Origin: Hexactinellida sp. DTS-2022
Taxonomy: Eukaryota; Porifera; Hexactinellida
Length of the DNA: 64,000 bases
Direction: 5' to 3'
NCBI GenBank assembly: GCA_028753945.1
Contig: JAPNXP010000001.1
Location: 7,740,501-7,804,500, forward strand
The position numbers and the translations under genes were made by a program. This document shows, one piece after another, positions 15,484 through 55,301 of the stretch (position 1 is the stretch's first letter; each line of letters starts with the position of its first letter). The notes under the pieces were generated by a model. The model did not search any database. It worked only from the letters and a program-made list of their open reading frames with translations, and had not been told where the DNA came from.

Positions 15484-17156
15484 CTCCGATTGGGTCAACC
15501 AATCATCCGATTCAGTCAACCAATTATCCGATTCAGTCAACCAATTATCCAATTGGGTCAACCAATCATCCGATTCAGTCAATCAATTATCCAATTGGGT
15601 CAACCAATTATCCGACTCGGTCAACCAATTATCCGAATCCATTCTAAGGATGATAACGATATTGATAATGATAGTAATAAGACATAAATGATATATAATG
15701 GTAATAGTGTTGATAGAGATTATTATATTAGGTACTATAGATCTTCGAGTCTAATAGCTTTAGCTGCTGTAACAGTCAATACATGGTAAAATGCATTGAG
15801 TGTGGCAGCTTGTGTAATACTTTGTAAAGCTCCTGGACAAATATTCAATAGTAATTGCCTTCTTGCTGATATAAATGTAGTCCCATCTGGAGGTGTACAT
15901 GGTCCATGTTGACTGAGAGCTCGTTTTACGTGAGCTTTAACGCTGTTAAAGGTGAATTCGATGGGGTTTAATTCACATGAATAAGGTGGAAGTCGGACCA
16001 ACTCGAAGTTCGGAGGGATAATTTCACATAACCGGTTTTCTACACCTCTGTGACAAGGAGCGTTATCAAGAATGATATGCGTTTTGGTAAGTCCTTGATG
16101 TTCAACTAACGGTTGTCCAAAATCGAAAACGAACAATTCTTGAATGAATTGATCGAAGTGGGATTGTTTAGCTCCTCCAACGATGATGGTGTGATGAATC
16201 AGTCCCACGTTTGGAGATACTGCACAAAGCATCGTAATATGTGGTGTGCGTTGGTTCCCTGTTATTTTCTTAGCTGGCAATCCTTTTACAGCTCTACCTC
16301 TTGTTCTTGATGTGTAGAGTCCAAACCCGCACTCATCAACATAACAAAAACGAACACCCATCTCATGCTGGGACATCAACCATGTTGCGTGTTCCCTTCT
16401 TGATGCCTTCAGTTCATCGCAATTCCTATTTATTGGAATTTGTTCCAATTTTTTCATTGTAATGAATTTCCCTTCAAGACATCTGGCTATCGTGCTCACT
16501 GAAACCTGTACACATTTTAAATCCAGTTGTTCTTTCAATTCATTGAGCGTGATGTCTGGACGGGATTCAACCTTTTCAAGTAAAAAATGAACATCATTTA
16601 ATTTCTTTCCTCTAGAGCCACCTCTATTCTTCACTTCATACTTTCTCAAACTACAAATCCTATATGCAGCATCTACTTTTACACCAAATATTTGGGACAT
16701 TTGCTTGTAGGTCACGCCTGCTTCGTGGGCATCAATTAATCTCCTGCGCACCTCGTTTGTAATTGTCTTGCCTCCTTTTGGAGCTACACTGTTACTTCCA
16801 AGTTCCAACAGATTCTGAGGTTCCCAATGTTGTGTCCATTTTTGAAGAATCAAAGTTTGTATCTTGAAAGTTATTAAGCAAATTATTTGTTTGTGCCTCA
16901 TATTTACCTGCTTATATAAATACACCAACCGTATACCAAAATGAAAAACAACTGTATTCATATTCATTGGATGAGTCGGATAATTGGTTGACCGAGTCGG
17001 ATAATTGGTTGACCGAGTCGGATAATTGGTTGACCGAGTCGGATAATTGGTTGACCCAATCGGATAATTGGTTGACCCAATCGGATAATTGGTTGACTGA
17101 ATCGGATGATTGGTTGACTGAATCGGATGATTGGTTGACCCAATCGGATAATTGAC
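15484..17156 (-). mobile_element. Tc1/mariner-superfamily transposon with tandem 21-bp terminal units
   Basis: Both ends are arrays of the same roughly 21-bp unit: about eight copies of CCGATTCAGTCAACCAATTAT at 15484-15642, and about nine copies of its reverse complement (GATAATTGGTTGACC) at 16969-17153. Variation within units (ATTGGGTC, ATTCAGTC, ACTCGGTC) appears in matching positions on the two sides. Between them is an uninterrupted transposase. The outermost ends and the TA duplication could not be fixed. Confidence 0.75.
15735..17075 (-). CDS. IS630/Tc1-mariner-like DDE transposase
   Basis: The minus-strand reading frame is open for 487 codons, but the first 80 or so are translation of the terminal repeat array; the real start is probably a later Met, for example near MRHKQ at about 16900. 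An N-terminal helix-turn-helix region follows (KTITNEVRRRLIDAHEAG, then YKQMSQIFGV). Catalytic motifs: CYVDECGFGLY (first Asp), THIILDNAPCH (second Asp), and LPPYSCELNPIE (Glu), with 35 residues between the last two. This matches the Tc1/mariner/IS630 superfamily, which cuts and pastes at TA. The full-length open frame suggests recent activity compared with its surroundings. It is nested in sequence inserted in the gypsy 5' LTR. Confidence 0.85.
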   Translation of the reverse strand, partial: STNYPIGSTNYPTRSTNYPTRSTNYPTRSTNYPTHPMNMNTVVFHFGIRLVYLYKQVNMRHKQIICLITFKIQTLILQKWTQHWEPQNLLELGSNSVAPKGGKTITNEVRRRLIDAHEAGVTYKQMSQIFGVKVDAAYRICSLRKYEVKNRGGSRGKKLNDVHFLLEKVESRPDITLNELKEQLDLKCVQVSVSTIARCLEGKFITMKKLEQIPINRNCDELKASRREHATWLMSQHEMGVRFCYVDECGFGLYTSRTRGRAVKGLPAKKITGNQRTPHITMLCAVSPNVGLIHHTIIVGGAKQSHFDQFIQELFVFDFGQPLVEHQGLTKTHIILDNAPCHRGVENRLCEIIPPNFELVRLPPYSCELNPIEFTFNSVKAHVKRALSQHGPCTPPDGTTFISARRQLLLNICPGALQSITQAATLNAFYHVLTVTAAKAIRLEDL

Positions 17157-17890
17157 TGCGAAATACAGTAGTTTGAAAGGATATACCATGTCTATCAACT
17201 AGACTGGAAGCCTATTTGGGCACAATAATAGTGTTCAATCCGGAGATTAATAATCCTGAATCTTCTTTATAAATTTTATTCGCGTTAATTTCATATATTT
17301 GAAAATGTTCAGCTCCAATTCGCGTTAATTTCATGGCGCGTTAATTTCCTTCGCGTTAATTACATGGCGCGTTAATTTCCTATAATAAGGTAATCTCGAA
17401 AATCTCGAATAATTTATAAAATCACGTTTTAGAGTGTCGGTATGTGTATAATTTTACTCAGGTAGCTGAATGGAGCCGAATGAGGGGTCACTTGATTAAG
17501 TGGGAACACAATTTGATAATGGAATTTTTACACATTCCTAATACATTCCAGCGTTGCTATGGAAAAAAATCTTCCAAATATGGACATGTGATAGATCAAA
17601 TTGTTGGAAATTTAACGCAGAGTACCAATATGGTAATAATAAGTTGATTGGAGCTGATTTGAGAAAGTTAGCTCCAGTTAGCTCTACTATTAGAGAAAGT
17701 TAGCCAAAGTTAGCTCTACTATTTTTTCTATGTTTATTTGGGTCCAGAGGAAGACTCTAGTGTAGAAATAGTTTGGTAACAATTTTTTTCAAGGTTTACC
17801 TATAATTTGAGGTAAAATTCCCTAACTAACTACTTCATCCGAATGTGGAAGGAGGCGCGCCAAACATAACACTCGCCAAGCATATACCAA
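17157..17890. other. inserted sequence of unknown origin before gypsy gag
   Basis: It contains four or five CGCGTTAATTTC words (17278-17375), perhaps an element end, and a 67-codon frame at 17444-17647 (+) with a Trp/Lys-rich helix-like composition that faintly recalls MADF/Myb-SANT modules of transposons. TAGCTCCAGTTAGCTCT-type repeats follow to 17720. The remaining gypsy 5' LTR was not found here. Confidence 0.35.
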
Positions 17891-22895: not shown

Positions 22896-23784
22896 TTTAG
22901 TATAATCTCAGCCCCATCAACAGATGGGGCTAACCATGGCCTACTATTATACGGCTAGATAAGTCAGTATTAGCCATTTTATTTCCAGGCCAATGTTTAC
23001 TTTCTAATTGCTCGTGAAATGAATTACCTATTGTCATGGAATAAACTAAACTTAGGTTTTCAAATACGCTGGAAACATCTAAAATACTTTTGAGAATGAT
23101 TTCTCATCGGATTTAACCACAATGACGTAATCAAATATACATACCCATATATGGCAATGATGTTAAATAAATGTTAATTTTTTAGATAATTTGAGAATCT
23201 AACTTTGCCGTTTTTATCCTAATGCATTTTCTTGTTAAAAACTAACTACAGTAACAAATTATGTCATTCCTTTCACTCAAATTCTTTTCAACGTCAATGT
23301 AAGTAAATAATTATACTATTGTTATCAAACCATATATTTTGTATTTTTTGTAATGTATAGTTAGATTTTAATCTAAGTCTTAAAAGTGCTGTTTGACGAT
23401 GTACATGTTACCCAGTCAGTTTAATGACTCTACTTCATAATTAGTATTAATTACCATATTTGGGTATAGTCTGGTTCCATTTCCTGAAAAGAGGCCTGGA
23501 TAACGAGTGTAAAGGCATTTGTTGTTAATTTTTGGGAACAAGTGTTTTTAGGGTAATTTTTGGGAACAAGTGTTTTTAGGGTAATTTTTGGGGAACAAGT
23601 GTTTTTAGGGTAATTTGAACCTGCTGAATCCAAAAATCACTGTTCCCAAGCTGAAATATGCCGTATTGACTTTCAAATTAGGAAAAAACAATATTGCTTC
23701 CTGGAATTTGGGTCTATTGTGTACTTGTTGATAACTCGTAATCCGCTAATGCTAGACACAATAAATGTATTATTGTCGTATAGG

Positions 23785-24122
23785 CAGTGGCGGCGCGAGG
23801 GGGGGCGCGGGGGGGCGGCCGCCCCCCCTGGCTTTTGATCCGCCCCCCCTGTGGGGGGGCGGGAACTCGCTTGTCTGTTATAGGAGTACTTAATGTTAAT
23901 GTGGAAATGCTAAATGCCCTGGACAGGGAGTTCATAATTTGCCGTTTTGCACCACCGTACACTATTATAGGACAGATTATTTAACCAAGTTTGTCATTAA
24001 AAATATCGATTTTGGTTTGAATATGAATTTTGGAATGTTTACAACTATTGGGTTTGCCCCTCCAGTGCATTGGTCCGCCCCCCTTTCGCCCCCCCACTGG
24101 GGCTGTGCTGGCGCCGCCCCTG
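23785..24122. mobile_element. G-run-rich hAT-type MITE (338 bp)
   Basis: Ends CAGTGGCGGCGCG and, inverted, GCGCCGCCCCTG, with the exact 8-base duplication CGTATAGG at 23777-23784 and 24123-24130. Both ends are packed with runs of seven or more G or C. It lies inside the left terminal repeat of the 9.26-kb element. Confidence 0.9.
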
Positions 24123-24390
24123 CGTATAGGAAGTCATATTTAGGCAGTCCGTAGATCAAATTGATTTAACTCAATTATTTGTGGAATGTGAGTTATGCGG
24201 TTTTCACACTATTCCATATATGGGTATGTCATTAATATGTAGAAATAATCTCTGAATCGCAAATAATCTGGTTCCATTTTGAAAATATGAGTTGTTGAGG
24301 TATTTGTAGTTATTATTTGGGAACAAGTGTTTTAAGGGTAATTTGCACCTGCTGAATCCAAAATCAATGTTCCCATACTGATATGATGTA

Positions 24391-26041
24391 TTGACATTCA
24401 AATTAGGAAAAAATACAGTAATGGATGCCATTTCAAGCCTCAAGAGACAGTCAAGTGATTCATTATCGATGTGCATTATTTTCCAGGAGCATAAAAAGTC
24501 AGAAAAGCTTGTTAAAGGTGGAGCACAAGGAGTTCAACGAATAGAAGAATGTGCTACCCAGAGACACAAGTTAAAAGATCGGAGGAACAGAGAAATTATA
24601 GACAGTGCTCAATGTGTCAGCATTACAAGAACTTCCGACATGGCACAGATCATGCTACTCTTGGTTCACTGACAAAAGCAAAATAGCTAGACATGTGCCA
24701 ACATACGATCCAGTACAACCATTGATTTTGACGAGCTTAAGGAGCTCGTCAAAACCAATTAATTGGGAACTCTGTCTGTTCTGCCAGAAAGATGCAAAAC
24801 ATGTGCTCCATTCTGTGGCCTCTTTCAAGATGAGCAAGAAGATAATGGACGCAGCTAAATTTGATCCAGCACTCAGCATTGCTTCTGCAGATAGTATTGA
24901 TTTAATGGCTGCAGAAGGCAAGTATCATTTATCATGCTATACGCTCTATATTAGATGTACGTCTAAAACAGAAGCCACTGCTAGAGAATGTGACTTAGCA
25001 ATGGCATGGCTCTGTATAGAACTAAAACAATCAGCCGTTAAGGGTCACATTTTGGAGCTGACTGCAGTTTGGACAAGGTACTGTCAACTTTGTGGAGATA
25101 CCGAGGAAGAAGTCCCAACATCATTCATAAGTCGTAGGTCATCATTCAAAGAAAAACTTAAACATTTTCTTGGAAATGTGTTTGAGTACCATGTTTTGAA
25201 AAGACATGGTGACTGTGAGAAGCAAACAGTAATGGTTCCAACAAAATTTTCCCATATACCCATTGCAAATATAATAGAACCCACAAACGAAAACACCAAA
25301 GAATATCTAATACCAAAGTTTGAACCACAAGATGATGCCTTTCTGTCTCTTGTGCATGTGGCCCTAAAGCTAAGATCAGATATTTTGAGTCAAACTCCAT
25401 ATAAGGGAGCCAATGTGTCAAGGACAGATGCAGAGTCATGCATTCCAGACAGTTTGTATATCTTTCTTAAGATTTTGTATGGTGGCGATGTCTTTGAAGG
25501 TGAAGAAGGTGAAGGTGATGATGATCATAAACATGATGAAGATACAAGCGACAATGAGATGATGCCTGCGAGAGTTTTGAGCGTTGCACAAGATCTTGTC
25601 TATGGTGTCAGTGCTGGAAAGCTTTGGACACCGAAACATATAGGGTTGGGGTGCTCTTTACACCAAGCTACTAGGTCAAAACACCTGGTACAATTGTTTC
25701 ATAAAGCAGGACACACCATTAGTTACAATAATGTTCTCCAGCTGGATACTGCCATGGCAGAGAGAATATTAAAGTCAATAGATCCTACAAGTGGAGGAAC
25801 TCTACCAACCAATCTAGTTCAAAAGCGATTCATGCACTTCACTGCAGACAATATTGATATTCTTGATTCTAGCTTGGATGGAAAGCACACCTTTCATGCA
25901 ACACAGGTTGCCACCTGGCAGCGAGGACCACCTGCAGCTACATCAATCTTGAAAGATATCCGGCTGTCACAACATGAAACCCTTCAGGTACCTGATGCCC
26001 TGAACATGCTTATTCCATGTGACAATCTGAAAGAAATGTAG
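24391..26041 (+). pseudogene. N-terminal part of the 9.26-kb element's protein
   Basis: Two overlapping frames (24391-24672 and 24605-26041) form one protein start; the second has a full 478-codon frame. It includes WHRSCYSWFTDKSKIARH, then CLFCQ with a following Cys/His pair, CYTLYIR and YCQLCGD, all cysteine pairs suggesting small zinc-binding modules, and an acidic stretch EGEEGEGDDDHKHDED around residues 300-315. I recognise the general pattern as a repetitive protein family of marine invertebrate genomes but cannot name it. The frame ends at a stop after NLKEM and continues in other frames, so it is broken. Confidence 0.6.
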
Positions 26042-27775
26042 AGCCAGCTTTACGGCAAGTAGAAGCAGAATGGTTCTGTAAAAGAGATGTAACCAATAAA
26101 GCTGAAACTGCAGCTGATGCTAAGGAAATGGCTTTTATCATCAAGCGGCATGACAACACCCTAAAGCATGGTTGGACTCAATTCAACCAGGAGTGCAGTC
26201 AAACAAATCTACCCCAAACAACAATCGGTATATGCCCCTTATACTGGCACCTGCCCATGACATGCTCACGACGAATACAGTAGTGCAAAGGTGCAAGTAT
26301 ATAGCCAACTCATATGGGCAAAAGTATGTAGTTCTTACTGTGGACGAAGCCTTGTATTGCAAGTTGATGACACTCAAATGGACAAATAAGGATTATCAGG
26401 AATATTTAATCCCCAGACTAGGGGGACTCCACACTGCTATGAACTACATGAAAGTAATTGGCCAACACATGCAGGCAACAGGACTTTTAGAAGTTTGGAC
26501 TGAGAGTGGTCTTTTAGGGCAGAAGACGGCAGTAAATGCAATGATTGGCAAGGGCTATGAGAAAGCGATGCGCTCACACAAAATTACAACCCAAGCACTA
26601 TGGAAAATTTTGCTACCCCAGTTCATCGAATATCTACTAGATAAAGACATTGACCTCTGGGGACTTATTTTAGCTGCAGAAAATCAGGATGATCATGAGC
26701 ATCTCACCAACATTTTATCAACACAGAGGTTCAGATATGTCTTATCCCAGTTTGGAGAAAGTCATTCATCAGATGCTAACTTCATGTTATGGTGGGAGTA
26801 TTTATACATGGTGAAAGTACTTCTATCATTTACTAGGGCACAGAGGGATGGAGTGTGGGATCTACACCTTACATCATTCCGCAACATGCTTCCCTACTTC
26901 CACAGATATGATCACACAAACTATGCCAAGTGGGGAGTCATATATCTGGCAGAAATGAACCAGCTTCCTGAAGAGGTGGCAGAGCAGTTCCAACAGGGAA
27001 ATTTTGTTGTAAAGGTTGGAAAGGCAAGATTCAATCAGATGGATCCTGATCAAGGTCAGGAATGGTTGAACGGTACTGGAAAAAAAGGAGGTGGAATAGT
27101 AGGAATTACAAAGACTATTTCTGCCCTGAGTAGGTGGGCTCTATCATTCAATCTCAGAGCACAAGTTTCTGCAGAAACCAGACAGCTGTATGATATGACA
27201 CTAGATGATTCTCTATCTCACAAGGAAACAAATATAGGCCGCAGAACGAAGGATAATCTTGTCGAAGAGAGAGTCGTGGATGTTTTAAATAGATTTGGTG
27301 TGTTTTCACCGGACAAAACGGCGAGTATGATACTGGAGAACATTGCCACAAAAGACCAGGCCACGGTGGAGATAACTAATGCCCTTCTTCTTGCCAATGA
27401 GCTAGGCCAGAAGCAAGTTGAGAAATTTGTTGAGGAAAGACTGATCCATACGGAAGCAACTCCATTAAAACGGTATTAGATCCATTGACAAGGAACAGAG
27501 CATTAACATTCTCAAATGTGTATGATGTCCCCAAAGTCGCAGATCAAAAGGCAAAGACATTGAAAGCTGACAGGTCGTTACTACAAAGACTTATAATTGC
27601 TTATGAAGGTGGAAGAAAGGTGAACCTAGAAGAAATACTACAGCATGAGCTTCTTCCTGTCCCAATCTCACTGGCAGAGATGAATGGAAGTCTGCGCACT
27701 GGTCAGAAGTCATTGCTTGCAGATGAACTATTTAAGGGAATCGATTGTACAATCTACAATTACAACATCGAATAG
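26042..27775 (+). pseudogene. middle part of the 9.26-kb element's protein
   Basis: After a frame break near 26041 and another near 26230 (QTTIG followed by YMPLILAPAHDM in a different frame), a 435-codon frame runs 26172-27479 and a short one 27485-27775. The segment is alpha-helical looking with many Trp and Met residues (LWGLILAAENQ, LHTAMNYMKVIG, YAKWGVIYLAEM). No catalytic motif can be recognised; its even spacing of conserved-looking aromatic residues suggests one folded domain. Function unknown. A stop at 27477-27479 and a frameshift near 27740 precede the 1.5-kb insertion. Confidence 0.55.
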
Positions 27776-27776
27776 T

Positions 27777-29274
27777 CAGTAGCGGATTTACCATAGGGCT
27801 GCTCGGGCTAAAGCCCTAGGACCACTTCATTCTTAGGCCCAGTTTAGGTCAACTGGGCCAGGAAATGGGATTGATTTGGGAGTAGAAACTAGTTTCCGCC
27901 GAAATTTTTTCAAAATATAATGAATAGTTTGCAATAGCTAAACCCGATGTTTCAATAAAATTTTAGCAACACCAGGTACATAAGTACTTCGTGACATTTT
28001 TAGCAATAAAAGTTATCTATCCATATATTAAAAGCACAATTGTTGTCTGCTTTTGTGTGTGTTAGTCTAGAATTGTTAGGGAAGACAATATGCTCTAGAA
28101 AATACAAATTGGCATGCAAGGGTAATTTTAGACGTTCACAACGATGAATTGGTCTTAACGTCTTCCAAACAAAATATCGGCATTCTGAAGTCTTAAAAGC
28201 GCATAACATCAACCTTCCAAACGGGCACCCTTATTGATGATACTCAAACTAAACAAGTACTTATTACTATAATCACGTTTAATGATAAAAATATGGACAA
28301 GACACTTTCTGAGATGCGGGTAAATTCCCAGTTACGGGCACCCTTCGTTAAAAGTGCCCGGATATAGGAAGTTTAGTGTATTTAGGAATAACTAATTAGT
28401 TTTTGTCCGAATCGCCACAATTTTAGATGACAAGGCAGGATAAAATGAAGCACACGTACGATTTATGGGATTATTGCCTCACGTAGGAACTAATTTGGAT
28501 TGACTCCTAGTATTTTGATTCAGACGACACAAATTTGTCACATTATAATATATATTGTATTGTATTTCTCTTCAAAATTTAACAATTTTCACTTTAATCT
28601 GCGCAGATATTATCAAAAACGCACCTCCAACTGCTTCCTCATGGCTCAAATTATGTTTTGTAGATTTAATCTTCCCCTACATTTTTCCGAGATTGCATAC
28701 TTTGATTAATCCAGTTTGGCTTACATCAATTACTTCTATTGGTGATTTATTTTTGCTACGTCAATCACATAATTATGCATGATATTACTATCAAAGATGT
28801 TCAACGATTTACCCGCATATATCTTCTGCATTGTAAATGACATATTGATCCAACAATTTATTGTCTGGAGGAAAATCTTGGTATTAAATAGCATTTTAAT
28901 TGATAAGTTGAATTGCCTTGACTCCCAAATTGTGACAAACTAATCTGAATAAAATAATATACGTGTAATTAACAATTCACAGGTTTAACTTATTTTATCA
29001 TGAGTGATTTCTTGAGGTTGGTAAGGTCGCGAAGCGTCCGTTAATTGTGTTTTATAGTCTAACACCAACGAAAAAAGGACACGGTGCGACCTAGACCGAA
29101 GAACTGGTATATTAATAGCAAATAATTAATAGTAATTATAGAAGAAAATATGTTATTTCATTGTTTCTGCTTAAATATGTAAAGTAGGGACTATCATTGG
29201 AAAAATAAAAGATATAAAAATAGGCCCAATAAAAATAACAGCCCTAGGCCCACAACACCCTAAATCCGGCACTG
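27777..29274. mobile_element. 1.5-kb hAT-type element inserted in the XPG-like gene
   Basis: Ends CAGTAGCGGATTTA and, inverted, TAAATCCGGCACTG, with exact 8-base duplication CGAATAGT (27769-27776, 29275-29282). GGCCTAGG/AGGCCCA words recur near both ends. No transposase is recognisable inside; short frames at 28000-28212 (-) and 28500-28782 (+) resemble nothing I know. A GGTCGCGAAGCGTCCG motif lies at about 29025. It is non-autonomous. Confidence 0.88.
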
Positions 29275-29282
29275 CGAATAGT

Positions 29283-30101
29283 GCTACTCTAGTAATCGAT
29301 GGACAGGCAATGGTGAATGCTATAGGGAATCCAAGTAATGCAACAACATTTGGTAACTTAGCTGACATATTTTCACGATATGTCTATCAGTCTGGCTCGG
29401 AATACTGTCGCATTGACATTGTATTTGACAGATACCGAAATGATTCTGTCAAGGCTGGAACAAGAATTAGGAGAATGAAAGGAGTAGCACCTATACGACG
29501 AATTATAGAGTCCAGGGAAGTACCCTTACCACAGGACTGGCAAGGATTCCTACATCACCAAGACAACAAAGCTGATCTTGCTCGATTCTTGTCAGAACAG
29601 TTAGTCAGTAGTTTCCAATCAGACAAGACAATTGTAGTTGCAGGAGGATTTCTGGAAGAGACACAAGTTGCCTGTAATAATCCAGCTATTAACACACAAC
29701 TACTTGAGTGTTGTCATGAGGAGGCAGATACCAGGATAGTGCTTCACTGTATGAACGCCTGTACGGATATCATTGTTGTAAATGCTCGTGATACTGATGT
29801 GTTAATACTGCTTATAGCACATTTTAATCCCAGCATAATGTGCAAGCAACTCTGGATGAAAGCTGGGACACATAAGAAACCAAAATTCTTCTCAGTAAAT
29901 AAAGTTATCCATAGAATTGGCTTGGACATATCTGCTGCACAGCTCCTTCTACCATTTCATGCACTGACAGGTTCTGATACAACATCCTTCCTATCTGGAC
30001 ATAGCAAGAAGACAGCTCTCAAAGTATTCTTCCAGCACAAAGAACTTCTTTGCTGGTCTTGGGATAGAACCACTAACAGAGGATACGATGGGGAATGTTG
30101 A
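29283..30101 (+). pseudogene. XPG/FEN1-like nuclease domain of the 9.26-kb element
   Basis: The frame reads the metal-binding skeleton of structure-specific 5' nucleases in the right order. LVIDGQAMVN (Asp at 29298) corresponds to FEN1 motif around Asp34; IDIVFDRYRNDSVKAG (Asp at 29427) to the VFDGKPP.LK region; CHEEADTRIVLH (29715-29735) to the EAEA acidic helix; VNARDTDVLILL (Asp codons at 29790 and 29796) to the EDMDCL pair; and LTGSDTTSFLSGHSKKTALK (Asp at 29976) to the GCDY...G.GPK.A helix-two-turn-helix. Such enzymes cut branched or flapped DNA. It is a pseudogene here: the frame breaks near 30050 and 1.5 kb is inserted upstream. The alignment is by eye; the fold is inference but the order of five acidic motifs is hard to get by chance. 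Confidence 0.7.
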
Positions 30102-30498
30102 GCAATTTGTATGTAGAATTTCTAATGTTCCTGAAGTGAACTCTATTGACAAGGCTAGAGTCACTCTTTTCAAGAAAGCACTGCGTCCTGAACTTCTGCC
30201 CCCAACAAGAGATGCTTTGACATACCACATTAAGAGAGCACACCTTCAGACCATAGTGTGGCTTGAAGCAATACAATTAAAGCCAAGTATTCCACGTGCC
30301 TCTACCATGGGGTGGGAACTCAAGGATGGTCAGATGTCACCAGTCCTTTTATCTCTTCCACCTATTCCTGCGTCCTGTATGGAACTGATTACGTGTGGAT
30401 GCACCACAAAATGCGATTCGTTTAGGTGTAAGTGTAAAAAATCCAGGTTGACCTGCACTGGTTCCTGCAAGTGTGAAGCTGATTGTATGAATGTTTGA
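30088..30498 (+). pseudogene. C-terminal CXC/CRC zinc-binding end of the same protein
   Basis: Continuing in a shifted frame, the protein has a helical segment (DKARVTLFKKALRPELLPPT, then ALTYHIKRAHLQT) and a cysteine-rich end with CGCTTKCDSFRCKCKKS followed by CTGSCKCEADC (about 30393-30492). This C-x-C-x(3)-C-x(4)-C-x-C spacing is the CXC/CRC (tesmin-like) fold, which binds zinc and DNA in host proteins. The same kind of end is found in the Ginger-like element at 46.6 kb. Confidence 0.7.
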
Positions 30499-30897
30499 AG
30501 TAATAAGAAAGTTAAAATTTGTGAAACAATATGCAAAAAGCAAGTACAAGTATTAGTAATTTTGTATTTTTATTATTTATTTATTTATTTCCAATGAACT
30601 TGACAGTGACCTTGACCTTGACCAGGTACTGAATGAATATTAAGTTCAAGCTATAATAAATGCATTGCAGTCCAAGAAAATTGGAAATGAATCTTAGAAC
30701 ATATCATAAATTACATAAGAGATTGTAGTAACATATGGAGGATATATGTATGGTAGCCAATTAAAAACGGTGGCTATATTGGATTAAAAAAAGGAAGAAA
30801 TGAATATCTTGTGTCAAACAACCCTGAAGTTCATTTTTTATTAAATCCTTATGTTAATTTACAAGGAAATTATGCTGTTTTTAAATTTTTAGTATTT
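30499..30897. other. 3' flank of the XPG-like gene
   Basis: AT-rich, with a TTTATTTATTTATTT tract at about 30577 and GACCTTGACC repeats at 30607-30625. A polyadenylation signal is likely but cannot be singled out. Confidence 0.3.
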
Positions 30898-31550
30898 TAG
30901 AGATTATTTCTACATATTAATGACATACCCATATATGGAATAGTGTGAAAAGAGCATTACTCACATTGCACAAATAATTTAGTTAAATCAACGTGATCTA
31001 CGGACTGCCTAAATATGACTTCCTATACGACAATAATACATTTATTGTGTCTAGCATTAGCGGATTACGAGTTATCAACAAGTACACAATAGACCCAAAT
31101 TCCAGGAAGCAATATTGTTTTTTCCTAATTTGAAAGTCAATACGGCATATTTCAGCTTGGGAACAGTGATTTTTGGATTCAGCAGGTTCCAATTACCCTA
31201 AAAACACTTGTTCCCAAAAATTAACAACAAATGCCTTATCAAGTCACATTTTCAGGAAATGGAACCAGACTAGTACTATGTATATTTGATTACGTCATTG
31301 TAGTTAAATCTGATGAGAAATCATTCTCAAAAGTATTTTAGATGTTTCCAGCGTATTTGAAAACCTAAGTTTAGTTTATTCCATGACAATAGGTAATTTA
31401 TTTTACGAGCAATTAGAAAGTAAACACTGGCCTGGAAATAAAATGGCAAATACTTGACTTATCTAGCCGTATAATATAGTAGGCCATGGGCTAACAAAAT
31501 AACGTAATGGGGCTAGCGCCCCATCTAGCCCCATGCTAGCGCCGCCACTG

Positions 31551-32418: not shown

Positions 32419-33273
32419 TTGTTTTCAATGCCTAACTGTTCTGCTCCCGGATGTAAGGGTAATTATACCCCTGAAGAACGTGTTACAGTATTTAAACTCC
32501 CTGAAGGTCCACCTGAGATTCGCCAGGCTTGGATACGTGCTCTCCATCGTGAAGATATTTGTGATCTCAAAAATGTGTATGTTTGTTCTAAGCATTTTCT
32601 GGAGGAAGATATTGAACTGTTTCACACAGTACCCAAAGGAGATGGCACATTCTATGAAGTACCGCGCGGAAGACCAAAATTGAAACTTGGCGCTGTTCCT
32701 TCTCTACTTCCAGGTTGTCCTCCCTATTACTCATCCACTCTATCAACCGGGGTCAAACGCACTCGTCTTTCTTTTGACTCCAAGGAGCAAGATTTCTTAA
32801 ACCAAGCAATTAATCTCAGTCTGAAATCAGAGAATGAAGAGTTGGAAAAGTTTCGTGTTCTTTGTGTACAAGAAATTCGAGATAAGTTAAGTTTAATTAC
32901 ACTCCCAACTGACTGGCTAGTTTGGTTTTCAAAGGATAACTGTATTAGATTATTCTTACCAAAGATGGATAATCATAAGATTTCTGTAGATGTTTCGCTT
33001 GAAATAAATACCTATTTATCAGTGATTGGCTATCTATATGGGCAAGTTTGTTCTCTTTCCCATAACTCTATCACTGATATTCGACAGATTGAAACTCTAT
33101 TATCAGAGATTACTCTTAAGCAAAACTCTTTTCCTAACGAGAGATATTCACAACATATATCTAAAGCAAAAGAACATATTGATGAAGCAATATTTGATCT
33201 TGTTGATGATGATGAATTAGGATCTAATTATTCTGATTTAGTGACAAAATTGCAATTATCCTTGGGCAATTAG
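32419..33273 (+). pseudogene. P-element transposase, THAP domain and N-terminal part
   Basis: The start is probably MPNCSAP (Met at 32428): THAP proteins begin M-x-x-x-C. The zinc ligands C-x4-C (CSAPGC) and, about 45 residues later, CSKHF give the C2CH THAP finger, with the AVPSLLP (AVPT-like) box at about residues 93-99. It binds the transposon ends in P elements. A helical region follows to codon 284, where a one-base shift near 33250-33270 ends the frame; the next frame picks up directly (LENSDIPKKRRRYNVITQ). Confidence 0.85.
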
Positions 33274-33282
33274 AGAACTCTG

Positions 33283-34040
33283 ATATTCCTAAGAAGAGAA
33301 GAAGATATAATGTTATTACTCAAATTTTGGCTTTAAAAACGCATTTAATTTCTCCTGCGAGTTACAGTTTTCTTCAAAGTTCAGAATGCATTTCTCTACC
33401 ACATGTTCATACGCTAGAGAAGTTGTACTCATCCTTCGGCCTGGAAAATGATTTTAGTACATACCTTAGCCAGGTTACTTCTTCTTTTAGCCCTCAAGAG
33501 AAGAATGTGATCATTCAGATGGATGAAATACACGTTAAGTCTGATATATCATATAAAGGTGGTAAAATATTTGGTCCTAACCTATCCCCTGATAACCCGA
33601 CAAAAACTGTTTTTGCCATCATGATTTCAAGTTTACATAAGAAATGGTCCTGTATTGCTCGTTTAATACCTTGTGCATCCATCACTGCTGAATTTCTCTT
33701 TCCCATAATCAGATCTTGTATTTTGGATATTGAATCTTGCGATTTGAAAGTACAAATTATTTCTACAGATAATTATCCCTTAAATGTGAATTTATTCAAG
33801 CAATTCTCTCCAAATAAGAAGTTAGAAACTCATGTACCACACCCTTCTTGCCACCAAAGAAAGCTCTTTTTTATTTTTGATTCTGTACACCTCTTGAAAT
33901 CAGTTCGAAACAACTGGTTAACCGTAGACTGCCGGAGAGATTTTCAGGAAAATAGAAAACCAAGTAGTTCTTTGTATTTAATAATTAGAACCAAGATATT
34001 TGAAATCGAACAAGAGCAGAATAATAAATCAACTTACTAG
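33283..34040 (+). pseudogene. P-element transposase, RNase H-like catalytic part 1
   Basis: It continues the THAP protein in another frame. It contains VIIQMDEIHVKSDISYKGGK, where DE begins the catalytic core (first Asp), then VQIISTDNYPLNVNLFKQFS (second Asp region) and FDSVHLLKSVRNNWL, the segment equivalent to HLFKNIRNNL of THAP9/P. Those blocks precede the GTP-binding insertion of P transposase. The frame stops at 34040. Confidence 0.85.
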
Positions 34041-34417
34041 AATTTTTAAAAAGATTTTCTCAAGGATTTTGACAAAAAGTGATGACACATACTTTCTCTT
34101 TAAATCGATATAACGCCGTTAACATGTAAGTAATCCTTTGTTTCTAAACTTGAACAATGACGACTATCTTATTAGTAATCAGATCTCAAAAATCGAACAA
34201 ATCCGATTCACATAACGAAAGTTACATCAATTTTAAAAAATCGACAAATTTGTTCTTGATGAACCATGGATTACGAAAAAATACAAATATTTGAGTTATA
34301 TCTATGACAACTCTATATTAGCGAAACCAAATATCATAAATAGTTAATATTTAGTCTAATATTTTCTTACGGGTATTTCCACGGTGTAATTTTAACATTT
34401 CGAAAATACGAAAGGAA
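34041..34417 (+). other. non-coding gap within the P-element gene
   Basis: AT-rich, with stops in all three plus frames. It may be an intron (a possible donor TGTAAGTAA is at 34124) or decayed coding sequence of the GTP-binding insertion. I cannot decide which. Confidence 0.35.
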
Positions 34418-35983
34418 GTGGCAAGCAAGTGGAGCTGGACACAAATATGCTACGTCATCATAACAATTTCTGAAATTTCTGATTTTTTGAATAAAATCGA
34501 TAGAGAGTACAAAACCATGTCTAAATCCGAATTTTCACGAAATTTGGATAATTTGATCGACCTGTTCTCCACCAGACACAACGTGTATCAGTTAGGCAGT
34601 CTACAGTTAAATCAGCAAGATTTTCATAAAACTTTTCACTTCCCCAACTTTCAAAATATTCAGTTAAGTTCTTATGAAGATCCAGTTCAAGTTCTATCAG
34701 CATCTTTCAATGATGTGTGCCTCCTCTACAATTCAGAGAAACAATCCTTAGCTAAATTAGCTCCAAACTTAACTATCAAAGCATGCTTTCCTTCTATCAT
34801 TGAGCGCCAAAATGTGAAACTAGTTCTGAAAGTAATCAATGAATTGACTATTGCAGCTTTGAAATTACAAAATGAACTTCGTCAGCCAGAAACCAGAAAC
34901 AATACTCATGAGTTTGTTGATATCCTCCTTAAAATTTGGAAAATATTCAATATAAACACACCATTTAAAGGTCAACGTTTAAATGATGATTTCTCAAGAC
35001 CTTTAATATTCCAGGACGAACGATTTTCCTTCTTAGCTTGTGTTGTAACTTGGTTAGAAGCTTGGCAAGCATTACCAGGCGATAAAGGAAAATTAAGTAA
35101 GCAAACTTTTACCAGCATCAAACATTCGTGTACTGTCTTGCCTGAGATTACCAACTATTTAACTGAGTTTTGTGGATTTAAATATCTCTTGAGTTCCTTT
35201 TTACAGACAGATCCGTTAGAACATCATTTTGGCCTATATCGTATGATGTCAGGTTCGAATTATCATATTACATATCTTCAGATTCTTGAAACTGAACGCC
35301 GCCTAAAATTATCCAACATTTTGAAGATATTTTCGTCCCAACAAGAATCTGGGTTTAATTCACTTCAAACATTTATCGATTCATACTCAACAACGTGTGA
35401 TACTTGTAATGATAGCGAAATAGATGTGCAACTGGTCATGGATGAAATAGGTGATTTAAATTCCATTGAATGTAGTAGACAAATAGTTCAGTCATTGGCT
35501 TTTATCGCTGGATATTCAGTACATAAGTATTTGAAAAACACTCAGTCATGTCATGTTTGCAATGAATTTTTAACTATTGATAAGGATTTTCTTTTTGATG
35601 AAGATTCACAACCTGAGCTTACACTTATAAGATTAACCGACCGTGGCGGTCTAAAATATCCATCCGAGGTTATACTAGACTCTATAATAACTTTATGGAA
35701 GACTCTGACTGCGATTGAGAGCAAAGACAACTTGACGGCGATGTTCATGCAAGGATCATTCAGAAAGTCTCTTGTCCAGCTTACGTTGATATTCTTAGAA
35801 GACACTAGTATGATTGGTGGTGACTCAAGTTGCATATCTTGTGGTGTTTCTCTGATTATTATCATAAATAAAATTATCTTCACATCTTCCAATTGTCTCC
35901 TTGCAAATAAAGTCAAGAATTATAACTCCGCTCTTATTTCTAAAGGTATAGAAAAGCGTAAATTAAAAAAATTCGCTCACTAA
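34418..35983 (+). pseudogene. P-element transposase, C-terminal part
   Basis: A 521-codon uninterrupted frame. It includes IIERQNVKLVLKVINE, DPLEHHFGLYRMMSGSNYHI (the catalytic-end block of P/THAP9, DxLExxFG..R), LQILETERRLKLSN, the CHVC pair with LTIDKDF, LTDRGGLKYPS and SSNCLLANKVKNYN. It ends before the right inverted repeat. Because it is complete and parallel copies at 14.6-37.2 kb and 43.6-46.2 kb match it, it serves as the reference for the other P fragments. With two frame breaks upstream the copy is probably not autonomous unless one gap is an intron. Confidence 0.88.
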
Positions 35984-52329: not shown

Positions 52330-54639
52330 CTACTGGGGTTGCACTGGTACCTGGACTTGTGGGTAGGTTTGTTCTGGGTGGGAGGAGACCAAAGGCGGGT
52401 AGTACGCGCTCTGCTGCATTGGGTTAGAAGCAAGCACCTGACTAGTGTCTGTCTGCGTGAAGGGAAGTAATGGCTGTGTCTGAGCAAAGTGTCCGTTCTG
52501 AGGGTATTGAGGATAGTGCTGATACTGGGGTGCTGGCGTATGGGAGGGGACCATTTGAGCAGAGAGGCCCGGCATACCCTGCTGCGCTGGCGGGACATGA
52601 GGGGGGTAGATTTGAGAGGGATACACAGGCGGTACCTGGGTTGGGGGAAGTACAGCTGACTGTTGCTGTTGCTGCTGTTGTTGTGGTTGTGGTTGTTCTT
52701 GCTGTTGTTGTGGTTGATGTGGTGGTTGTTGTTGTTGTGGGACGTAAGAGGACTGTGGATTGGTGTGTGGGTAGGCGGGAGCGGAGTAGAAGTACTGCTG
52801 TGCGGGGGCCTGTTGGTACTGAGGGTACTGGTAGAGACTGGGGGGAGCCTGCGTGTAGCTGGGATCCGACTGCAGGAGAGAGGGGTGCGAAAAGGCGCTG
52901 GCGTGAGTCGCGTTGGGGATAGGGACAGCGGATGCGAGCTGGGCAGGGTACCCCTGGGGAACCAGGGGGTTGTACTGAGAAGGCGACACGGGAGAGGGGA
53001 GGGGCTGCGTCTGTGGGGTGTACAGGCCGAGGTGGGGAGAGGGGTCCGGGTAGTGGGCGGGGGCGGGGCTGGGGACAGGGGGGACAGGGGACGGCTGTGG
53101 GATGGAAACGTGGGGAGCTATGGGGTATGGGGTGTAGAAGCTGTCAGGTGTGAGGGAGGGGCCCGGAGGCGGGGCCTGTCCGGGCATAGGGGGCGTGGTG
53201 TACCACTGATTGTTTGCAGGCGCAGAGTTTATCTGCAGCGAGTCTAGCGCAGTCGCTGTACTGAGCAAGCTCACTGAGTCAATGTCCTGGACCGTGTCCC
53301 CTGCGGTACCGAAGGTGGAGCCACGGCCCACCTCTGGCTCTGATGGATCCACACGGTGCATCTTGCCTCTGCCCCGGCCCCGCCCCCTCTTGGCCAGGGG
53401 ACTGGAGGATCCGAGGGTGGGGGCATTGACCTGCTGCGAGTACTCGGGGTACACGCTGCTAGCGGACTCCGTAGCGAAGGAAGCCATACTTTCGCTGTCC
53501 TCAGTTTCATACCTGGCGCTTGTCCTGGAAATAGGGGTCTGGCGGGCGGAGGGGAAGTACCGGATGTCGCGAGAGGGGAACACAAAGTCCTCTTCCTGGG
53601 GCCCTGGGGACAGCACTGTTTGCTGGTGAGCCTCCCTGACGATGGGGAGGTGCTTCGGTCCCATGGCGATGTTGTACTTCGGACACAGATGGTCGGAGAA
53701 TATGTAGGCCAGCCTGTTGACCATCCCCAGCGAGCAGTGTCGGATCTCCCGCGTCTCGTGCCAGGCGCAGTTGGCCCCGGGCTCGTAGTCGAAGGCGGAG
53801 GAGGAGAGCATATCTTTGGACTCGTGCGTGGAGGGCGCGATGTCGGAGATGTGGCTGGACAGGTCGATCAGCAGGTACTCCAGCACGTACACTTTGAATA
53901 GTTCGTGACTCGTCCTGGTGCGCTCCGCGAGCCAGCGACAGCAGCTCTCTACCATCTCCGCATCGTCCTTACGCGTGAAAATGGGCGGGAACTCGCTCTC
54001 GCGCTGGGAATTGATAAACAGCTGAAGCTCGTCCAAAATAAGTCCGTAGTTGTCCTCAGCCAGTTCAAACTTCTCTATGGGGATCTTGTGAGTCTGCTCG
54101 CTGCGGTTCTGCGCTTCCCAGCGGTACCCAGTGGGGATCTTACCCGGGGCGATGAATTTGTGCCAGCTGCGATTGATCCCGTTCTGAATGCTATACTCAA
54201 CGGCTGAGATCTCGCAAGGGAAATAGTTGCCCTTTTCCTCATGGCAGATGTACTGGAAGTCTATGAAATAGAAGAGGCACTCGGCCGCTGCTTTCCCCAC
54301 AGGCCATCTGGCCCGCGTGAACTGTCGCTCCGACTTGCGTCTCTCTTCAATCTGTCCCTTCTCGTCCACTCGGTCTGCTAGCGGCTCTCCCAGACAGTCC
54401 AGACGCGTGTCCGTCACCACCTTAGCCATGCTCAGCCCGCTCTTGGAAGCCACCTTTGCCCTCTGGTTGAAGTAGGACCTGTCCTGAGGAGGGAGTCCGG
54501 ACCAGAGGGGGTTCGCGATATTAACCATCTCCGCCATCGAGGGCACCCGCTGTCCCTCATCTCTGTACCGGTCCCGTATCTCTTGCATAAACACGGCAAA
54601 CCCATTCGGCTTAGCCTTCTTTGTTACCACTTTACTCAT
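52330..54639 (-). CDS. MAEL: Maelstrom homologue with long Pro/Gln-rich tail
   Basis: One uninterrupted frame, no introns. I place the start at the second Met (54639, MSKVVTKKAKPNGFAVFM), because that is where the HMG box begins; an earlier in-frame Met is at 54660. Residues about 5-70: HMG box (NGFAVFMQE, LWSGLPPQDRSYFNQRAK), a DNA/RNA-binding module. Residues about 118-325: Maelstrom domain, an RNase H-like fold that has lost exonuclease residues and carries a zinc site; the Cys-x2-His-x7-Cys group CAWHETREIRHC (C291, H294, C302) and a Glu near 143 fit that ECHC site. Maelstrom acts in germline piRNA silencing of transposons, in nuclei and nuage. The remaining 440 or so residues are Ser-, Pro-, Gln- and Tyr-rich with an RGRGRGRG run at about 417-424 (possible arginine-methylation/Tudor-binding site) and a polyQ tract. 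Typical family members are about 430-460 residues, so this one is much longer. Confidence 0.93.
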   Translation of the reverse strand: MSKVVTKKAKPNGFAVFMQEIRDRYRDEGQRVPSMAEMVNIANPLWSGLPPQDRSYFNQRAKVASKSGLSMAKVVTDTRLDCLGEPLADRVDEKGQIEERRKSERQFTRARWPVGKAAAECLFYFIDFQYICHEEKGNYFPCEISAVEYSIQNGINRSWHKFIAPGKIPTGYRWEAQNRSEQTHKIPIEKFELAEDNYGLILDELQLFINSQRESEFPPIFTRKDDAEMVESCCRWLAERTRTSHELFKVYVLEYLLIDLSSHISDIAPSTHESKDMLSSSAFDYEPGANCAWHETREIRHCSLGMVNRLAYIFSDHLCPKYNIAMGPKHLPIVREAHQQTVLSPGPQEEDFVFPSRDIRYFPSARQTPISRTSARYETEDSESMASFATESASSVYPEYSQQVNAPTLGSSSPLAKRGRGRGRGKMHRVDPSEPEVGRGSTFGTAGDTVQDIDSVSLLSTATALDSLQINSAPANNQWYTTPPMPGQAPPPGPSLTPDSFYTPYPIAPHVSIPQPSPVPPVPSPAPAHYPDPSPHLGLYTPQTQPLPSPVSPSQYNPLVPQGYPAQLASAVPIPNATHASAFSHPSLLQSDPSYTQAPPSLYQYPQYQQAPAQQYFYSAPAYPHTNPQSSYVPQQQQPPHQPQQQQEQPQPQQQQQQQQSAVLPPTQVPPVYPSQIYPPHVPPAQQGMPGLSAQMVPSHTPAPQYQHYPQYPQNGHFAQTQPLLPFTQTDTSQVLASNPMQQSAYYPPLVSSHPEQTYPQVQVPVQPQ

Positions 54640-55301
54640 TGAGAGAGAGAAATAGCGCAATATAAGTACAGTAGCTAGAGGATTTTCATTAGTAAATATG
54701 TGTCAGTTCCTACTAAATTGAGAAATCGCTCATATATTGGTTAGAGGAGACCGTAGAAATTTAAATTTCGAAGTTGGATAGAAAGTACCTATATACGTAG
54801 TAACCCAAATCCGTGGTGGTATTGATAATTGTTAAATGGTATTTATTATAGTTTTCTAGGTAGCAGCTAATATCGCACATTCACCATGTCGTAGAACACG
54901 TAAGTATGTGATATTTGCCAGTCAACTGATGGTGCCACTCTACAATATAAAATAAGGGGTGGTAAAGGAGATATGGACAGCTCCATATGCAGATAAGGGT
55001 ATGAAGTAGTATCAATAATACTGTTAGTGGTCAAGATTTGAAGTCTTGGTTTGAAAATACATTATGCATATCGTATAATAAATAAGAAATAGCAGAAATG
55101 GTCCTGTTTCCAACGAGAATCCAAAGATTTCCCACCAGAAAAATCAAGATTTCCCGTAAAATCCCAAATTTACAACATATTTTTCCGAAAGAACGACTTT
55201 AGGACATTTTTACTAGAAGAAGCAGACTACAAATGCTTACGTTTCACTTTAAACTGTGCAGTGTGCTCCATTCCATAGTATAAAACTATAGTAATAGTAG
55301 G
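54640..55301. other. upstream region of Maelstrom
   Basis: GAGAGAGAG directly precedes the start codon on the minus strand. No TATA box can be singled out. AT-rich, with AAGATTTCCC words at about 55125-55160; no gene. Confidence 0.35.

Follow-up and report, generated by a model that had tools for sequence, protein, structure and literature searches.

A nuclease frame within a transposon copy

The window analysed here is a stretch of 64,000 nucleotides from Hexactinellida sp. DTS-2022 (contig JAPNXP010000001.1, positions 7,740,501 to 7,804,500). It contains a transposon copy in which an open reading frame (ORF) of 272 amino acids up to its stop, translated as protein P0001, occupies positions 29283-30101 of the forward strand (Table 1). 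The original prediction had recognised in this frame five acidic motifs of an XPG/FEN1-like nuclease carried by a transposon. All five motifs are present and are conserved among 58 aligned proteins, and an AlphaFold2 model of the frame has a 5'-nuclease core whose acidic residues align with those of EXO1. The frame is very probably the nuclease half of a protein that joins transposase and nuclease, encoded by a DNA transposon of the Academ superfamily, AcademX lineage.

A homolog search with P0001 returned 351 proteins at E≤1e-3 from 761 candidates, and 57 of the best 120, which were listed, were aligned with it. Identity to P0001 is 36-54% for 56 of these 57. In P0001 numbering, D49, E146, E147 and D149 are each kept in 58/58 rows, and D6 in all 48 rows that have a residue there; D170 is kept in 55/57, D172 in 53/57 and D232 in 56/58. 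Judged by sequence, the acidic motifs are evidently not the product of chance.

The model of P0001 has a mean pLDDT (predicted local distance difference test) of 90.4 and, in a structure search, resembles T5 flap endonuclease, Rad2, EXO1, FEN1 and Xrn1. The predicted structure is that of a 5'-nuclease (XPG/FEN1) core with a helix-two-turn-helix region. For a profile-profile comparison, 110 sequences of the XPG part (two alignments plus two host-genome sequences) were set against 31 EXO1-family rows in hhalign. Local mode gave a probability of 94.6 and a score of 61.7; the reversed profile scored 17.3 and 30 column shuffles scored 11.1-23.8, which rules out a chance match of motifs. The global option, run on the same profiles without controls, gave a probability of 97.0 and a score of 56.2. 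In the profile alignment, D49 (VFD) pairs with D78 of human EXO1, E147/D149 with E150/D152, D170/D172 with D171/D173, and D232 with D225; D6 (VIDG) pairs with D30 in the global-mode run. By this alignment, the acidic residues appear to be in register with the EXO1 metal site.

The window nuclease shares its predicted core fold with FEN1, EXO1, XPG, GEN1 and T5 flap endonuclease, and its acidic residues (VFD, EAD, DTD/DSD, GSD/GCD) line up with those of EXO1. It differs from EXO1 in a longer spacing from the second acidic motif to EEAD, and from the known 5' nucleases in scoring under Pfam detection of XPG and in being fused behind a transposase. Identity between the element's nuclease domain and human EXO1 is 16-17% in the profile alignments.

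The frame at 29283-30101 holds only the middle of the domain. In a full-length relative, P0131, the EXO1 match starts at residue 700 of the model, upstream of the VIDG motif, and the start of the EXO1/FEN1 alignment corresponds to GQKSLLADELFKGI in the window. By alignment, the N-terminal start of the domain in the window lies at about 27701-27776, separated from the rest by a 1498-bp insertion that cuts the domain in two. We read the final residues of the frame as a frame-disrupted tail because in the three closest copies a single frame covers residues 1-257, whereas the tail is matched separately, if at all. The nuclease reading continues in the overlapping ORF at 30088-30498.

The transposase half and the outline of the element

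Relatives encode the nuclease as the C-terminal half of a single long protein, the other half of which carries a conserved D/D/E set. Both halves lie in a single 1463-amino-acid frame in a distant element of the same genome (L018). In the close copy L009, one frame of 915 amino acids spans the window's first transposase ORF and most of the second, and a frame of 595 amino acids joins the linker and first XPG element to the nuclease. A search for full-length homologs scored 7996 candidates and found 645 at E≤1e-3; the best 120, listed, are 851-1637 amino acids long, mostly about 1500, with a central part followed by the XPG part and, at the C terminus, a tail rich in Cys. Its Cys columns are nearly invariant in the full-length alignment, and the Pfam TCR match of the window's tail ORF (E 0.54) is under the cut-off. 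The five ORFs of the element in Table 1 are pieces of such a protein.

D96, D99, D271 and E492 (P0131 numbering) are kept in 51/51 rows of full-length type and, in the P0131 model, have the expected placement, on or beside predicted strands and on a helix. We take this D/D/E set to be the putative active site of the transposase because of its conservation, its predicted strand and helix positions, and the published placement of Academ among the DDD/E superfamilies. DUF6589 matches the L018 protein (P0123) under the cut-off and two of three database homologs scanned above it; our literature search found no publication on this domain.

The element was outlined with three other copies in the host genome (112 Mb in 18 contigs searched), at 96-98% protein identity. 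With the window copy these make four close copies of the nuclease, among at least 115 matches to P0001; the start of the terminal inverted repeat (TIR) of this family has 14 matches. Exact tips were found at both ends of L009 (6061 bp) and L010 (5763 bp). Within the stretches compared, L011 and L039 have the left tip only and L040 and L041 no exact tip. The TIRs are about 380 bp long; left and right agree over 387 columns at 94.1% in L009 and 93.5% in L010. The target-site duplications (TSDs) of the window copy, L009 and L010 are GTA, TTA and TAGA. L018 (5475 bp) and L014 (5851 bp), more distantly related elements of this genome, likewise have tips TAGT...ACTA, with TSDs GCA and ATA. Each of the five elements for which both tips were examined, representing three families in this genome, is flanked by a duplication of 3 or 4 bp; when the tips are moved by 1-3 bases, at most two bases match in each of the five. 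The XPG-bearing, Academ-like sequences at L018:4285-8676 (reverse strand) and L014:3611-7093 have long open frames.

The window copy itself is dead, because two hAT-like elements have inserted in it, one of them in the nuclease domain, and its reading frame is broken between the ORFs. The hAT label is our presumption from the form of the tips and the length of the TSDs. A single Academ copy holds two different hAT-like non-autonomous elements, each with an 8-bp duplication.

Table 1. Features of the transposon copy in the window (positions in the window; L009-L011 are close copies in the same genome)
Feature	Position	Strand	Basis or remarks
TSD GTA, left	23464..23466		Direct reading
Entire transposon copy, 7806 bp with its two later insertions	23467..31272	+	Tips TAGTCTGG...CCAGACTA; comparison with copies
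Left TIR region, interrupted by an insertion, then its start repeated in degenerate form	23467..24413	+	Repeat comparison
338-bp hAT-like non-autonomous insertion in left TIR, 8-bp TSD CGTATAGG	23785..24122		Absent from L009-L011
Transposase, N-terminal part	24605..26041	+	ORF, alignment; Cys motif CLFCQKD 24773-24793, first conserved acidic motif TADNIDILD 25841-25867
Transposase, central part	26172..27479	+	ORF, alignment; second acidic motif LTVDEALYC 26334-26360, third DQGQEWLNG 27048-27074
Linker and first XPG-domain element	27485..27775	+	ORF, alignment with P0131; GQKSLLADELFKGI 27701-27742
8-bp TSD CGAATAGT of the 1498-bp insertion	27769-27776 and 29275-29282		Direct reading
1498-bp hAT-like non-autonomous insertion, tips CAGTAGCGGAT / CAGTGCCGGAT	27777..29274		Absent from L009-L011
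Predicted XPG/FEN1-fold nuclease core	29283..30101	+	Translation, AlphaFold2 model, structure and profile comparison, conservation
VIDGQ	29292-29306	+	Acidic motif in nuclease ORF
VFDRY	29421-29435	+	Acidic motif in nuclease ORF
HEEADT	29715-29732	+	Acidic motif in nuclease ORF
RDTDVL	29787-29804	+	Acidic motif in nuclease ORF
TGSDTTS	29967-29987	+	Acidic motif in nuclease ORF
C-terminal end of nuclease domain and Cys-rich tail, Tesmin/CXC-like	30088..30498	+	ORF, alignment; tail CGCTTKCDSFRCKCKKSRLTCTGSCKCEADC 30394-30486
Right TIR	30885..31272	-	Repeat comparison
TSD GTA, right	31273..31275		Direct reading

Placement within Academ

The original description of Academ and that of the AcademX nuclease, reportedly of the XPG type, are reported to go back to work by Kapitonov and Jurka and by Kojima (2020). 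The claim in the original prediction that no common transposon superfamily uses this fold is most likely wrong, as AcademX has a nuclease according to PMC10045372. In that description, AcademX encodes a nuclease and makes 3-4 bp duplications, and AcademH carries a helicase, with duplications of 9-10 bp. We assign the window element to AcademX because its nuclease joined to a transposase, its TIRs and its 3-4 bp duplications match this published description. The length also agrees, near 5.5-6 kb; the mean for curated Academ elements of bivalves is 5565 bp (PMC10294476). In the features compared, the window family shows no difference from AcademX, which is known here by its published description. 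AcademH, of the same superfamily, differs in its 9-10 bp duplications, and Pfam finds no helicase at E≤1 in the element's window ORFs or the scanned L009, L014 and L018 proteins. The pairing of nuclease and transposon is most likely already known, with the window element joining a described Academ group. The suggestion of a new mobilisation or repair-hijacking mechanism loses its premise and is not supported, since AcademX, whose combination this element matches, had already been described with a nuclease and 3-4 bp duplications.

Several observations weigh against this reading. The best Foldseek E-value for P0001 is 1.6e-3, with TM-scores of 0.41-0.49 for the 5' nucleases that lead the list; from rank 10 on, the list includes unrelated entries. 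A first profile comparison, with 58 sequences, reached a probability of only 57.7. Neither the element's five ORFs in the window nor those of L009 have a Pfam match above cut-off. The fold search for the transposase half was weak and did not confirm an RNase-H fold (best transposase hits HzTransib, E 0.5, probability 0.15, and ISCth4, E 1.2), and one homolog, P0102, is labelled as coming from a bacterial metagenome-assembled genome and not from an animal. AcademX was assigned by description and not by alignment to Repbase Academ sequences, and we only infer the activity of the nuclease and its role in transposition. Apart from these points, some searches brought the identification no further. 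Pfam hits on the 58 aligned members are scattered and weak, one of them with 5_3_exonuc_N at E 0.084. PDB sequence searches with P0001, its alignment profile and P0123 gave no 5' nuclease among matches at E≤10, and a structure search with a 1122-residue model matched mostly from the nuclease half. No paper with both Academ and XPG as whole words was among the matches listed in a literature search that also used Kolobok and transposon terms.

Could the element instead represent a superfamily outside Academ that acquired an XPG nuclease independently? The weak transposase fold search would fit, as would the facts that Academ reference sequences were not directly compared and that Pfam gives the proteins no name. 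We nevertheless regard this as very unlikely, given that the nuclease, the 3-4 bp duplication and the length agree with published AcademX and Academ, and that Academ is ranked among the DDD/E superfamilies (PMC9587614). It is more improbable still that the transposon recently captured a host gene of the XPG family (FEN1, EXO1, GEN1 or XPG), to the point that we rejected this reading: the fold and metal-site register are the same as in EXO1, but the host's PF00867 members lie elsewhere. These comprise six matches, all above the family cut-off, among them a locus read, with supporting evidence, as EXO1 (L019) and two read by eye as XPG- and GEN1-like (L020, L021). The element's domain, in contrast, falls under Pfam detection with its low identity to human EXO1, and the two-part protein also occurs in homologs from other animals.

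A different question, within AcademX, is whether the XPG half is dispensable for transposition and acts, for example, on DNA repair in the host or against competing elements. Not every Academ lineage has the nuclease, AcademH elements carrying a helicase in its place (PMC10045372). The near-invariance of the acidic site in 58 rows, despite the low identity of most homologs, argues for the contrary, as do the fusion of nuclease to transposase and the argument in that paper that duplication length in the two lineages tracks the accessory enzyme. We think a dispensable XPG half somewhat unlikely.

Several animal phyla are represented among the named relatives. Named homologs of the nuclease include proteins of fish, crustaceans, a sea spider and molluscs, and named full-length homologs include those of an annelid, a coral and an anemone. 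In the porcelain crab Petrolisthes manimaculis, the predicted protein P0008 shares 82% identity with P0001; set against the range of the other 56 homologs, this sequence identity suggests recent horizontal transfer, or contamination. Adjoining the Academ element, at 32419-35983, is a P-element-like transposon whose THAP and TNP-like RNase-H domains (PF05485, PF21787) fall in separate frames. A Tc1/mariner-like transposase with DDE_3 lies at 15735-17198 (reverse strand). The same transposon-rich window holds, at 52330-54660 (reverse strand), an animal gene of transposon defence: Maelstrom, of the PIWI-interacting RNA pathway, which occupies a single long frame and whose HMG box falls slightly short of the Pfam cut-off.

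A candidate role for the nuclease half

Assuming an AcademX element, its N-terminal, RNase-H-like D/D/E half would bind the long inverted repeats, expose the 3' ends of the transposon and join them to the target across a stagger of 3 or 4 bp. The FEN1/XPG-like half, presumably active, could then remove the 5' single-stranded flaps remaining at the junctions, and fill-in and ligation would leave the 3-4 bp duplications. This flap-trimming step is possible rather than probable. The same tentative standing applies to the broader idea that the transposase completes integration with a flap nuclease of its own, only the 3' ends being joined and the donor 5' flaps removed afterwards. Phage Mu would offer a parallel, in that 5' flaps are reported to be resected after its insertion (PMC3325207); trimming by the XPG half would be a eukaryotic counterpart of that resection. 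The proposal concerns a mechanism for a known kind of element, and no new kind of element.

A nuclease fold missed by Pfam was recognisable here from reading the sequence alone. To transposon biology the element contributes an animal family whose relatives have a modelled transposase-XPG protein and whose target-site duplications are clean. If the flap-trimming proposal is true, such an element would be independent of host flap processing, and its 3-4 bp duplication would be fixed by the XPG half. Whether the XPG half trims 5' flaps during transposition and sets the length of duplication by which AcademX and AcademH differ is a testable question.
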